From Desulfurivibrio alkaliphilus AHT 2 (GTDB taxonomy: Bacteria > Desulfobacterota > Desulfobulbia > Desulfobulbales > Desulfurivibrionaceae), in NCBI RefSeq assembly GCF_000092205.1, contig NC_014216.1:2671742-2735741 (forward strand): DNA of 64,000 nucleotides, given 5' to 3'. Within the stretch, counting starts at the first letter, position 1. Each line of letters begins with the position of its first letter. Both the position numbers and the translations under genes were made by a program. Below, in pieces: positions 3,878-40,600 of the stretch. Below the pieces are notes generated by a model. That model made no database searches, was not told where the DNA came from, and saw only the letters and a program-made list of their open reading frames with translations.

Positions 3878-5524
3878 ATGGCAGATACCAAAGCAGCAGA
3901 AATGAAGGTTAAGGTGGTCACGGAGCCGTCCCTGATGACCGGCGCCGTCCCCACCCACGACTGGTGGGATGTGGAGGCGATCTTTAAGCCCGGCAATTAC
4001 TGCTACCCGGCCAAGAAGAGCATTGCCGAGTACCACGGCAAGAATCTTCCCGGACTGTTCGGCGAACCCCGCGACTGGGATATTGAAAGTGATGACTGGG
4101 CCTTGCCGGAAAACTGGAAGGAGATCATCATCAACGGCATCAAGGAGCGGCTGGATAAGTTCCGCTCCCTCAAGATATTCATGGACTGCTGTGTCCGCTG
4201 CGGGGCTTGCGCCGACAAGTGCCACTTCTTCCTGGGCACCGGTGATCCCAAGAACATGCCGGTGCTGCGGGCCGAGCTTTTCCGCTCGGTATACCGCAAC
4301 GACTTCACCACCGCCGGCAAAATTCTGGGCCAGATCGCCGGGGCCCGGCCCATGACCTTCAAGGTGTTGAAGGAATGGTTCATGTACTTCTACCAGTGTA
4401 CCGAGTGCCGGCGCTGCTCGGTCTTCTGCCCCTACGGCATCGACACCGCCGAGGTGACCATGATGGGCCGGGAATTGCTGCATCTGGTGGGGGTCAACAC
4501 CAACTGGATTCTCGAGCCGGCGGCCAACTCCAACCGCACCGGCAACCACCTGGGCCTGCAGCCCCACACCTTCAAGGAAAACGCCGAGTTCCTGCTCGAC
4601 GACATTGAAGAGGCCACCGGGGTAAAGCTCAACAATCTCACTTTCAACCGCAAAGGGGCCGAGGTTCTCTTCATCATCCCCTCGGCGGATGTCTTCGCCG
4701 ACCCTGGCATCTTCACCTTCATGGGCTACATCATGCTCTTCGAGCATATCGGCCTTGATTACACCATCAGCACTTACTCTTCGGAAGGCGGTAACTTCGG
4801 GTTGTTCACTAACAACCAGTTGATGAAAAAGCTCAACGGCAAGATGTACGCCGAGGCCAAGCGCCTGGGCGTGAAGTGGATCCTGGGCGGTGAGTGCGGC
4901 CATATGTGGCGGGTCGTTCACCAGTACATGAACACCATGAACGGTCCGGCGGATTTCCTGGAAATACCCAAGAGCCCCATCACCGGTACGGTCTTTGAAA
5001 ATGCCGCCGCCACCAGGATGGTGCATATCAGTGAGTTTACCGCCGACCTGATCCACCAAGGCAAGCTGAAAATCGACAAAAACCGCAACGACAACCGGAT
5101 CGTGACCTTCCACGATTCCTGCAACACCTCCCGCGGCATGGGCTTGCTGGAAGAGCCCCGCTACATCATCAACAGCGTCTGCAACAACTTTTACGAAATG
5201 CCGGAAAACACCATCCGGGAAAAGACCTTCTGCTGCGGCAGCGGTACCGGCCTCAATACCGGCGAGATCATGGATTTGCGGATGCGCGCCGGATTGCCCC
5301 GGGCCAACGCGGTCAAGTACGTGGCCGAGCGCCATGGGGTCAACATGCTCGCCAATGTTTGCGCCATTGACCGGGCCACCTTGCTGGCCCTCAATCAATA
5401 CTGGAATCCGGAAGTGCAGGTTTGCGGTATTTCGGAACTGGTCGGCAACGCCCTCATCATGGAGGGAGAAAAAGAGCGGGAAACGGACCTGCGGGGCGAA
5501 CCCCTGCCGGGAATGGAGGGTTAA
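3878..5524 (+). CDS. dsrK: DsrK, HdrD-like iron-sulfur catalytic subunit
   Basis: 548 residues, cytoplasmic face. Two [4Fe-4S] motifs are visible: CVRCGACADKC (about 105-115) and CTECRRCSVFCPYG (about 174-187). The C-terminal half has CCG-domain features (FHDSCNTSRGMG near 412; FCCGSGTG near 449), the family that holds the noncubane cluster of heterodisulfide reductase HdrD. Its likely partner is the DsrC trisulfide made by dissimilatory sulfite reductase; dsrC is not in this window. A good ribosome site (AAGGAACG) precedes the ATG. dsrJ starts 3 nt downstream. Confidence 0.96.
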   Translation: MADTKAAEMKVKVVTEPSLMTGAVPTHDWWDVEAIFKPGNYCYPAKKSIAEYHGKNLPGLFGEPRDWDIESDDWALPENWKEIIINGIKERLDKFRSLKIFMDCCVRCGACADKCHFFLGTGDPKNMPVLRAELFRSVYRNDFTTAGKILGQIAGARPMTFKVLKEWFMYFYQCTECRRCSVFCPYGIDTAEVTMMGRELLHLVGVNTNWILEPAANSNRTGNHLGLQPHTFKENAEFLLDDIEEATGVKLNNLTFNRKGAEVLFIIPSADVFADPGIFTFMGYIMLFEHIGLDYTISTYSSEGGNFGLFTNNQLMKKLNGKMYAEAKRLGVKWILGGECGHMWRVVHQYMNTMNGPADFLEIPKSPITGTVFENAAATRMVHISEFTADLIHQGKLKIDKNRNDNRIVTFHDSCNTSRGMGLLEEPRYIINSVCNNFYEMPENTIREKTFCCGSGTGLNTGEIMDLRMRAGLPRANAVKYVAERHGVNMLANVCAIDRATLLALNQYWNPEVQVCGISELVGNALIMEGEKERETDLRGEPLPGMEG

Positions 5525-38026: not shown

Positions 38027-38926
38027 CTATGGCTTACGGGCGTCAGCGGCAGCGGGCCGGGGGCTGCGAGAGCCCACCGTTACCCCGCCGATCTCCAGCG
38101 AAATGGCGTCAAATTCGCAGGCTTTGTCCATGCAGGCCAGGCAGGTGATGCACTCGGCATCGTCCGGTGACTCGTTGAACTTGACCCCCATGGGGCAAAC
38201 CTGGTGGCAGGCCTTGCAGTTGGTGCAGCGGGAGCGGTCAAGTTGCAACCTGACCAGCCGCACTTTGGCAAACAGGGCGTAAAAGGCGCCCAACGGACAG
38301 GTGGTCCGACAGAAAGGCCTGCTCGCGTAAACCGCCCATATTATGAACATAACCATAATAAATAATTTATTCAAGAAAAGAAGGCCCGCCGCCTGGCGCA
38401 GGCTGGGCTGCATGATCAACATGGGGATTCCGGCGGTCAGGGTTCCGGCCGGGCATATGTATTTGCAAAACCAGGTGTCGCCGCTGCCGAACTGGTTAAC
38501 CACCAAAAGGGGCAGCAGGATCACGAAAAAGAGCAGAAAGCCGTACTTGAGGTAACGCATAAAGTAAGGAATGCCGAACTTGCGGCTGGGGATCTTGTAA
38601 AGCAAATCCTGAATCAAGCCAAAAGGGCAGAGCCAACCGCAGACCGCCCGGCCCAGCACGCCCCCCATCACCCCCATGAAGCCGGCGACATAAAGGCCGA
38701 TGTAAAGCTGCCCGCTTTCCAGGGTGTGGCGCACGCCGGCAAAGAGTTGCTGCAGGGCGCCGATGGGGCAGGAGGTGGTGGCGGCCGGGCAGGAGTAGCA
38801 GTTAAGGCCCGGAGCGCAGAGCACCTTCAGCGGCCCCTGGTAGATGGTACGGGTAACCGGGAATTCCCAGTAGCCGTTGACCAGCAGGGTGGACAACACC
38901 TGAACCCAGCGACGTATCCTTTCCAT
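38027..38926 (-). CDS. Polytopic 4Fe-4S membrane protein (NapH/YccM-like)
   Basis: 299 residues. Several hydrophobic helices alternate with cysteine motifs: CYSCPAATTSCP, CGWLCPFGLIQDL, CKYICPAGT, CRTTCPLGAFYAL. Two ferredoxin-type clusters follow (CTNCKACHQVCPMGV and CITCLACMDKACEF). This is the NapH/NosR/RnfB-related polyferredoxin plan for electron transfer across the inner membrane. It starts 4 nt after the stop of a 58-residue CXXC protein, a pairing seen in other bacteria. Substrate or partner is unknown. Confidence 0.87.
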   Translation of the reverse strand: MERIRRWVQVLSTLLVNGYWEFPVTRTIYQGPLKVLCAPGLNCYSCPAATTSCPIGALQQLFAGVRHTLESGQLYIGLYVAGFMGVMGGVLGRAVCGWLCPFGLIQDLLYKIPSRKFGIPYFMRYLKYGFLLFFVILLPLLVVNQFGSGDTWFCKYICPAGTLTAGIPMLIMQPSLRQAAGLLFLNKLFIMVMFIIWAVYASRPFCRTTCPLGAFYALFAKVRLVRLQLDRSRCTNCKACHQVCPMGVKFNESPDDAECITCLACMDKACEFDAISLEIGGVTVGSRSPRPAAADARKP

Positions 38927-38930
38927 TCCC

Positions 38931-39107
38931 TCAACCCACTCCGATACAGCTCAGGCAAACCTGGATGGCCTGCTCCAGGACCCGCCGGGGCTCGCCGGCG
39001 GCAATGCCGACGATACCCATGAGCATGAAAACCAGGATCACCACAAAGGGGGCATGGCGGATTTCGGTGCGGTTCTTTTTACTTTTACGGCTTTGTCGGG
39101 CGGGCAT
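38931..39107 (-). CDS. Small CXXC membrane protein (CD1871A-type)
   Basis: 58 residues: a basic N-terminus (MPARQSRKSKKNRTEIRH), one transmembrane helix (APFVVILVFMLMGIVGIAAG) and a tail ending CLSCIGVG. The single helix followed by a C-terminal CXXC near IGxG matches the CD1871A family of CXXC proteins, which sit directly upstream of 4Fe-4S membrane proteins. It ends 4 nt before that gene, so the two are almost surely cotranscribed and may work together. The family name is from memory. Confidence 0.72.
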   Translation of the reverse strand: MPARQSRKSKKNRTEIRHAPFVVILVFMLMGIVGIAAGEPRRVLEQAIQVCLSCIGVG

Positions 39108-39586: not shown

Positions 39587-40600
39587 TCAGTCCCGCTCGG
39601 GCATGGTCAGAAAACCCTCCCGCTCCAGCAGGGCGCGGGGGTTGAGCAAAGGGTAAGAGGCGTCGTCATCGGTGGTGCCCAGGCCGGCGATATCGCCGTT
39701 GGCGGCCGCCTGAAAACGCTTCAAGGTCAGCGGCTTGCTGCCGGCCAGGCGAACCGGGATCACTCCGTGCCACTGGCCGTGGCTGAGGACCAGCAGGTGG
39801 TCGGCGTTTTCCGGCGGCAGCGGCGGCAGGCCCCCGCCTCTGGGCAGGATAAGGGGAAGTTTGAGTTTTTTCAAGCGGCCGGCGGGGATTTTGCTCAACG
39901 GGCCGTGAAAAAGCCTGGGCAGCCGGCGGAACAGGCGACTGAAATCTTTCAATGACACTTCGGTGGCCGCCAGCAGGGCCTGGCGCTCACTGGGCTTGAT
40001 GGGAGCCAGCCGGGCAACGGCTTTGCCGACTACCAGCAGCGGAAACTCGCCGATTTTGATCAGTCGACAACTCTCGCCGGGGATCGGGGCATAGCGGTGG
40101 GGCCGGTTGCTGCCCGCTGCCCCGGCTGCATTCGAGGCGGGGGCAACGGTGGGGCGGCTGGCTTTGCTGGCCGGGGGATTGGTGTTTGCCGGTGGGCGGT
40201 CTTGGGATGGAGTTGCCGCCCGGTTGGCCGGTTGCGGGCTCCGGCGCTCTTGTAACTGATTTTTCAGGCCGGTGAAGCGTTTGTACATGCGCCGCCCCAA
40301 CTCTTCTTCCCGTTCGGGGTCGAACTTGCCTTCTTCGTAAATATTGACCACATGGGCCAGGGTTTCCTTGAGGAAGTCCAGGCATTCGGGATCTGCCACG
40401 GCCTGCCGCTTGCGCATGTAAAGGACCACCCCTTCTGCCATACCCAGCAAGGCCAGGATGTTTTTGCGCGATTTAAAACGCTGTTTCAAGCAGGCGCAGG
40501 CCTCCAGCAGCGGTTCGCTGCGCCGCTGGGGCAGGCGCTGATCCTGGGAGATGATCTCTGCCTTGAAGATTCGAATGGATTCGTCGATGGAAATGGCCAT
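39587..40600 (-). CDS. Hypothetical protein, possible degenerate CheW-like C-terminus
   Basis: 337 residues, soluble; I do not recognise the family. An N-terminal helical domain (about 1-120) is followed by a Pro/Ala/Asn-rich linker (about 120-160). A C-terminal domain from about 168 begins CRLIKIGEFPLLVVGKAVARL and ends DHLLVLSHGQWHGVIPVRLAGSKPL then YPLLNPRALL. The strand pattern and the second half recall CheW folds, but CheW-specific glycine positions are not secure. It is followed by the PilZ gene 65 bp downstream, so a signalling role is possible. Confidence 0.5.
   Translation of the reverse strand: MAISIDESIRIFKAEIISQDQRLPQRRSEPLLEACACLKQRFKSRKNILALLGMAEGVVLYMRKRQAVADPECLDFLKETLAHVVNIYEEGKFDPEREEELGRRMYKRFTGLKNQLQERRSPQPANRAATPSQDRPPANTNPPASKASRPTVAPASNAAGAAGSNRPHRYAPIPGESCRLIKIGEFPLLVVGKAVARLAPIKPSERQALLAATEVSLKDFSRLFRRLPRLFHGPLSKIPAGRLKKLKLPLILPRGGGLPPLPPENADHLLVLSHGQWHGVIPVRLAGSKPLTLKRFQAAANGDIAGLGTTDDDASYPLLNPRALLEREGFLTMPERD

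Follow-up and report, generated by a model that had tools for sequence, protein, structure and literature searches.

NapH is described as a quinol-side subunit (PMC5928378; PMC8238504), and NapH-like proteins, which serve many reductases, as modular carriers to extracytosolic flavoproteins (PMC8238504). NapH (TIGR02163) and the membrane module of NosR/RdhC combine CX3CP-bearing membrane segments with [4Fe-4S] motifs at the C-terminus (PMC5928378); whether the CX3CP motifs work as disulfides is left undecided there. A different route is provided by CcdA/DsbD with TlpA/ResA, through which reducing equivalents are exported to periplasmic thiols, including those of apocytochrome c. TlpA/ResA-type redoxins, DsbC-like proteins and cytochrome c assembly all require reduced thiols.

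The locus described here lies in a window of 64,000 nucleotides (the whole stretch of DNA that was analysed; NC_014216.1, positions 2,671,742 to 2,735,741) of Desulfurivibrio alkaliphilus AHT 2, whose genome is a single 3,097,763-bp contig. The first-pass annotation had reported a 58-residue membrane peptide with a C-terminal CLSC motif, 4 bp ahead of a NapH-like gene, and this description was borne out by the open reading frames (spacer at 38927-38930), the protein domains and the match to NCBIfam NF040920, the CD1871A family (Table 1). The peptide starts with ATG and consists of a basic N-terminus, a single hydrophobic segment and the ending CLSCIGVG-stop. Its score against NF040920 is 34.8 bits (curated cut-off, 32), and it has the C-terminal CXXC of the family at residues 51-54, so that domain and motif are common to both. 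A chance open reading frame was ruled out by this score, together with the recurrence elsewhere of the same frame, tail and partner. The nearest named relative is from Desulfurivibrio sp. AMeS2 (70% identity). The NF040920 family name carries neither a function nor a selenocysteine (Sec) form, unlike the Sec relatives described below.

Table 1. Features of the peptide-NapH pair in the window (positions are those of the window).
Feature	Position	Strand	Basis
CD1871A-family (NF040920) single-pass membrane peptide, 58 aa	38931..39107 (stop codon included)	-	Open reading frame, NF040920 score, relatives
CLSC motif, C51-L52-S53-C54	38946..38957	-	Sequence; the first Cys codon here is TGC
Predicted membrane-spanning helix, roughly residues 20-38, with the basic flank first	38994..39050	-	AlphaFold2 model of the core and charge; topology inferred
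NapH-type membrane polyferredoxin, 299 aa	38027..38926	-	Open reading frame, PF12801 and Fer4 domains, conserved Cys, AlphaFold2

An AlphaFold2 model of the 44-residue peptide core (mean pLDDT 76) contains two helices, residues 4-22 and 25-41, with the CXXC ending the second. Over 112 peptides the mean net charge is +1.6 before the helix and -0.4 after it, and the peptide is probably oriented with its N-terminus inside and its CLSC tail outside.

The family was surveyed at phylum level in 395 genomes of Desulfobacterota (107 family groups). The NF040920 profile matched in 91 of these genomes (E <= 0.01) and a model of 112 peptides in 125 (E <= 0.001). The family was counted in 123 genomes from 38 family groups, a number that excludes weak, partial matches in G311 and G282; also uncounted are G131 and G109, with NF040920 matches, and one locus dropped as a false match (L105, in G378). 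In all there are 144 distinct peptide loci, 105 of the Cys and 39 of the Sec form. Loss of the small frame or of its CXXC in relatives would have spoken against the first-pass annotation; instead, [Cys or Sec]-x-x-Cys is present at all 144 loci. Within the 44-residue core of 112 aligned peptides only C37, C40 and G42 are invariant, Sec being counted as Cys.

The annotation had also supposed that such peptides are constantly paired with a NapH-like gene, and had proposed a neighbourhood survey of CD1871A-like proteins. In that survey a NapH-type gene adjoins the peptide at 139 of the 144 loci, downstream at 137 and directly upstream at two (L061, L184). The downstream frame starts within 2.2 kb at all 137, the largest gap being 798 nt; the gap is at most 130 nt at 131 loci and at most 20 nt at 115. 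No NapH-type gene was found in the stretch examined at five loci, namely L055 and four loci of family group f24 with Sec peptides (L176, L178, L179, L181). L055 is a second copy in its genome (G203, about 5048-5179), of the Cys type CMLCLSCIGMG; the same genome also has a Sec copy. In the reverse direction, the partner alignment was searched in 80 genomes, four of them positive controls. Ten of the other 76, all without an earlier peptide match, gave a long NapH-type match above 200 bits, and the remaining NapH-type matches listed for these 76 reached at most 104 bits. A missed peptide was present in nine of the ten, directly upstream in seven and in G160 and about 570 nt upstream in G005; the sole exception was G102, where no peptide was found. 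The pairing is thus nearly but not fully constant, from the side of either gene. It also extends beyond the surveyed phylum, the outside example being Peptoclostridium acidaminophilum (Bacillota), where the annotated CD1871A member overlaps the gene of a 4Fe-4S binding protein that is 46.9% identical to the window partner.

The window partner combines about four membrane segments with three motifs of the CX3CP type; a CX2CX6C stretch lies in its N-terminal part and two [4Fe-4S] motifs in its C-terminal part. A Pfam scan up to E 1 gave 4Fe-4S binding families only and no DsbD transmembrane domain (PF02683). The score against NapH TIGR02163 is 69.5 bits, below the family cut-off of 213, and the protein does have the CX3CP (C96/C100, C206/C210) and the two C-terminal [4Fe-4S] motifs of the NapH type. 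Unlike NapH, it contains additional conserved Cys loops (43/46/53 and 154/158), and its usual neighbour is a small peptide, no nap genes being recognised among the neighbours examined. All 103 aligned partners have Cys at positions 43, 46, 53, 96, 100, 158, 206 and 210, and 101 to 103 of them keep the ferredoxin cysteines; less constant are position 37 (Cys in 96 partners) and position 154 (in 74). A change of C154 to Ser was considered as linked to Sec and ruled out, since Ser also occurs in partners of Cys-type peptides of family group f30; it is taken as a clade marker. Hydrophobic segments and charge would place Cys 43/46/53/158 outside and 96/100/206/210 inside, in a topology prediction whose hydrophobicity cut missed the first membrane segment. 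The AlphaFold2 model of the partner is of high confidence (mean pLDDT 92.4, pTM 0.87). A Foldseek search with it gave no match at E < 0.001 and no usable solved fold for the membrane part; weaker structural matches, mainly to residues 223-290, and the sequence search indicate the ferredoxin part.

Sec forms of the peptide lie outside the first-pass finding, the window copy being of the Cys form. A TGA inside an NF040920 match was first met in seven f30 genomes, where it takes the exact place of the first Cys of CLSC, after which the frame reads LSCIGVG-stop. Within f30, 16 of 24 genomes match, 11 of them with TGA, and a DNA pattern gives four more genomes of this group. This pattern, U-L-x-C-(I or M)-G-x-G-stop, occurs at 32 sites in 29 of the 395 genomes, with none in the reversed control, and the peptide model added the Sec genomes G005, G078, G083, G351 and G210. 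Altogether an in-frame UGA aligned with the first Cys of the CXXC, with conservation continuing beyond it, occurs at 39 of the 144 loci, in 34 of the 395 genomes and 12 family groups; four f30 genomes outside the sample have it as well. By sequence, these UGA-bearing relatives are predicted selenocysteine forms. Among ten scanned, NF040920 was the best NCBIfam match of every one, always below the cut-off (at most 31.1 bits). In ten Sec forms about 35-53 codons precede the UGA, and Sec forms are therefore probably cut or missed by gene finders. At nine loci (L171-L175, L177, L178, L183, L185, in f24, f48, f89 and f98; e.g. L172:6025-6417) the UGA is preceded by an uninterrupted reading frame of up to about 130 aa, and these long frames may represent extra N-terminal membrane helices on the Sec protein or contain an internal start.

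A bacterial SECIS element was modelled as having its apical loop 16-37 nt after the UGA, with G in the first two positions (PMC13188914). A predicted hairpin common to most Sec loci, with a GGGU loop 18 nt after the UGA, fits this model in position; its five inner pairs are intact at 33 of 36 Sec loci vs 3 of 83 Cys loci, and its 3' arm lies mostly beyond the stop codon. Three f10 Sec loci have a different hairpin, farther downstream. The stem-loops of the five Sec loci found later are clean at L223 and L224, weaker at L220 and L221 and irregular at L222. On 32 distinct sequences 92% of cells pair, compared with 35-58% after sliding of the partner. Double-sided changes occur in two pairs, a count reached in 84 of 500 shuffles; as the stem is nearly invariant, most covariation measures are only modestly above shuffles. 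tRNA-Sec was found in 32 of 33 Sec genomes tested, a set that lacks G005, G078, G083, G210 and G351; the one without it is G397, an 89% complete genome. It was also found in two of five Cys-only f30 genomes, and SelB scored above cut-off in six of seven Sec genomes tested. The window genome encodes tRNA-Sec and SelB, although its peptide copy is of the Cys form. A tree of 118 partners, of which 30 go with Sec and 88 with Cys peptides (a quick method, six incomplete NapH rows left out), requires at least four Sec/Cys changes, against a shuffled mean of about 27, with the f10 Sec forms nested within Cys and the f30 Cys forms nested within Sec.

Recoding of UGA as Trp or Gly, or a pseudogene, was rejected because the UGA falls on the first Cys of the CXXC, because UGA ends most of these peptides, and because of the hairpin and tRNA-Sec. 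The selenoprotein TsoA (NF045695), a LULAXC motif protein by its name (PMC13188914, Table 1), has a similar-looking L-U-L motif; its name implies a U-x-x-x-C spacing, in contrast to U-x-x-C in the peptides here, and no match to it appeared among 11 proteins at E up to 10, in a search where HMMER filters drop most weak matches.

Where Cys and Sec exchange at a UXXC motif, the residue is usually a redox residue, and the occurrence of Sec exactly at the first Cys of the CXXC makes this Cys probably catalytic. Most uncharacterised selenoprotein families with such motifs have been considered likely redox proteins (PMC13188914). Together, the near-constant NapH-type partner and the Sec in place of one tail Cys suggest a role of the pair in moving electrons outward through the cell membrane to thiols. 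On balance we think it probable, from sequence evidence, that the two genes encode a transmembrane thiol (selenol-thiol) reductase, in which electrons would pass from the NapH-type protein to the peptide tail and on to periplasmic redoxins. The NapH-type protein would take electrons on the cytoplasmic side, from ferredoxin or quinol, and its two ferredoxin-type clusters and conserved membrane cysteines would conduct them onward. At the outer face the NapH-type protein would reduce the CXXC (UXXC in Sec forms) of the C-terminal tail of the peptide, and the reduced tail would in turn reduce periplasmic thioredoxin-like proteins of the TlpA/ResA or DsbC type. These redoxins could then act on further thiols; where the pair is encoded among cytochrome c genes, these would include the haem-binding cysteines of apocytochromes c. 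We infer the topology, the cluster assignment, the direction of electrons, the contact between the two proteins and the clients. Use of a NapH-type protein in such a relay is plausible in view of the modular NapH-like carriers (PMC8238504) and of the question of CX3CP disulfides left undecided in PMC5928378. With the flavinylated extracytosolic systems the pair would share a NapH-type protein as modular transmembrane electron carrier; the carrier there is covalent FMN (PMC8238504), and here it would be the CXXC/UXXC tail. Between the thiol relay and the cofactor delivery that the first-pass annotation had offered as examples of a function, the relay is favoured by the Sec/Cys exchange at the first Cys, the nearby redoxins and the depletion of DsbD/CcdA. 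The cysteines kept in every partner, in loops predicted on both sides of the membrane, also speak for it. Points against it are a failed prediction on cytochrome c, the many redoxins without CxxC, the six loci that follow formate dehydrogenase genes, the five loci without NapH and the absence of a recognised thiol gene near most loci.

The tail might instead serve as a ligand to a metal centre of the NapH-type protein (an Fe-S cluster or another metal), which it would complete or shield, with no redox relay. The near-constant pairing, the invariant C-terminal tail and the Cys-rich partner would all be in keeping with such a role, and Sec has been proposed to coordinate nickel in [NiFeSe] hydrogenases (PMC13188914). 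We nevertheless consider it unlikely: each of the two loop sets of the partner already has four invariant Cys, and the solo copies without NapH adjoin a YCVAC redoxin, which lies immediately upstream of the Sec peptide at L176, L178 and L179 (f24). Nor was a hydrogenase gene recognised among the neighbour clusters scanned (a subset), which also bears on the C-terminal peptide of NiFe hydrogenases, with its UXXC, considered as a candidate identity.

Neighbouring genes were called roughly, from our own scoring of open reading frames, and part of their clusters was annotated. At 25 of 36 Sec loci vs 5 of 89 Cys loci, redoxin-like genes were found on the same strand within about 6 kb; many Cys flanks were only 1.5 kb long. 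Of 125 loci, 12, from six family groups, have a TlpA-like gene with (W/Y)CxxC no more than 2.5 kb away on the same strand. At L176, a Sec locus without NapH, the upstream redoxin has (W/Y)CxxC, and genes for a DsbC-like thioredoxin and a cytochrome c554-like protein lie downstream; in Peptoclostridium acidaminophilum a TlpA gene lies upstream of the pair. At 17 Sec loci with redoxin-like frames all of these frames are without (W/Y)CxxC, some being TPR fusions with WSxRS, and they could not themselves take electrons through that motif. WSxRS replaces WCxxC in redoxin-like proteins upstream of the Sec peptide at L047, L050, L136, L137, L170, L177, L180, L182 and L188, the protein at L136 being a redoxin-TPR fusion by Pfam; redoxins without CxxC kept beside Sec peptides are perhaps scaffolds. 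At most loci, the window included, no recognised thiol gene was found near the pair. In the window, PilZ and SH3 genes adjoin the pair. A protein of 337 aa (39587-40600, minus strand), for which Pfam gave no match, is conserved upstream of the pair at 10 loci, often with PilZ between. Many Cys loci (L072, L074, L077, L094, L097, L098, L103 and others; 29 by clustering) have a thiamine-binding protein gene (PF01910) just upstream, and at the same type of locus RdgB/Ham1 (21 loci) or RNase PH lies downstream of the pair, for no evident reason.

The DsbD/CcdA family PF02683 was found in 330 of the 395 genomes, with a weak match in the window genome (E 7e-4). The pair is present in 48 of the 65 genomes without PF02683 vs 74 of the 330 with it (odds ratio 9.8; 122 pair-positive genomes, G210 excluded). 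When one genome per family was drawn, the median odds ratio was 8.6 and the median p 3.5e-5. CcdA-like families other than PF02683 exist, and absence here refers to this family alone. The proposed common task of both systems is the export of reducing equivalents to periplasmic thiols, and their genome distributions are partly complementary. The partner of the pair is without PF02683, and iron-sulfur clusters would replace the thiol-only membrane relay of CcdA/DsbD.

This distribution bears on the direction of the relay. Like DsbB or VKOR, the pair could work in reverse, oxidising periplasmic dithiols and passing the electrons to the quinone pool or the cytoplasm, as sequence cannot tell direction and NapH is described as a quinol-side subunit (PMC5928378; PMC8238504). 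This direction seems quite improbable, because genomes that lack the reductive DsbD/CcdA family are enriched in the pair, and because TlpA/ResA-type redoxins, a DsbC-like protein and cytochrome c assembly genes are found among its neighbours.

FdhE is encoded upstream of the pair at six Cys loci from three family groups (L025, L027, L031, L037, L071, L093; f41, f53, f86), five of which also have a Fer4_11 formate-dehydrogenase-like iron-sulfur subunit, and at L071 and L093 TatA- and TatC-like genes (named by eye) lie between FdhE and the pair. This conserved order may tie the pair to formate dehydrogenase export, and it allows a respiratory role. The pair would then be a general electron-transfer module, for example the membrane unit of a formate dehydrogenase, whose tail serves any enzyme at hand, much as NapH-like proteins serve many reductases (PMC8238504). 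Such a general function is very doubtful, given that the FdhE order is limited to six of 125 loci, all with Cys peptides, and that no enzyme was recognised as common to both kinds of surroundings in the partly annotated clusters.

CcsA-like clusters occur at 16 of 36 Sec loci vs 5 of 89 Cys loci, ResB-like clusters at 9 vs 2, and a CXXCH-type cluster at 12 Sec loci; genes for CXXCH cytochromes adjoin some loci. These genes might indicate a factor devoted solely to cytochrome c maturation, which is highly improbable because the pair occurs in Peptoclostridium acidaminophilum, an organism with, to our knowledge, no c-type cytochromes, because many Cys loci have unrelated neighbours, and because PF01578 is found in 80 of 80 genomes, pair present or absent. 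The 80 include all 17 with neither DsbD/CcdA nor the pair, for which cytochrome c assembly had been predicted to be absent. The idea that cytochrome c assembly requires DsbD/CcdA or the pair failed in this test, which leaves further substitutes besides the pair, a third route or overlooked CcdA-like families as explanations.

The 2026 review lists 119 prokaryotic selenoprotein families or subfamilies (PMC13188914); the family is absent from its selenoprotein table, and neither NF040920 nor CD1871A appears in its text. No account of the family appeared among the literature hits listed; prior notice in Haft and Gwadz (2023) or Haft and Tolstoy (2025) is possible. As a tentative proposal, the transmembrane thiol reductase described here may represent both an unrecognised selenoprotein family and a second bacterial machine for the export of reducing power, from polyferredoxin to single-helix UXXC/CXXC peptide to periplasmic redoxins, that stands in for CcdA/DsbD in many anaerobes. 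A named family of small proteins without a function thereby gains a testable role, and its near-constant partner indicates a possible source of electrons. If the proposal is true, anaerobes that lack DsbD/CcdA would reduce extracytoplasmic thiols by an iron-sulfur route, which would bear on cytochrome c maturation and on thiol homeostasis.
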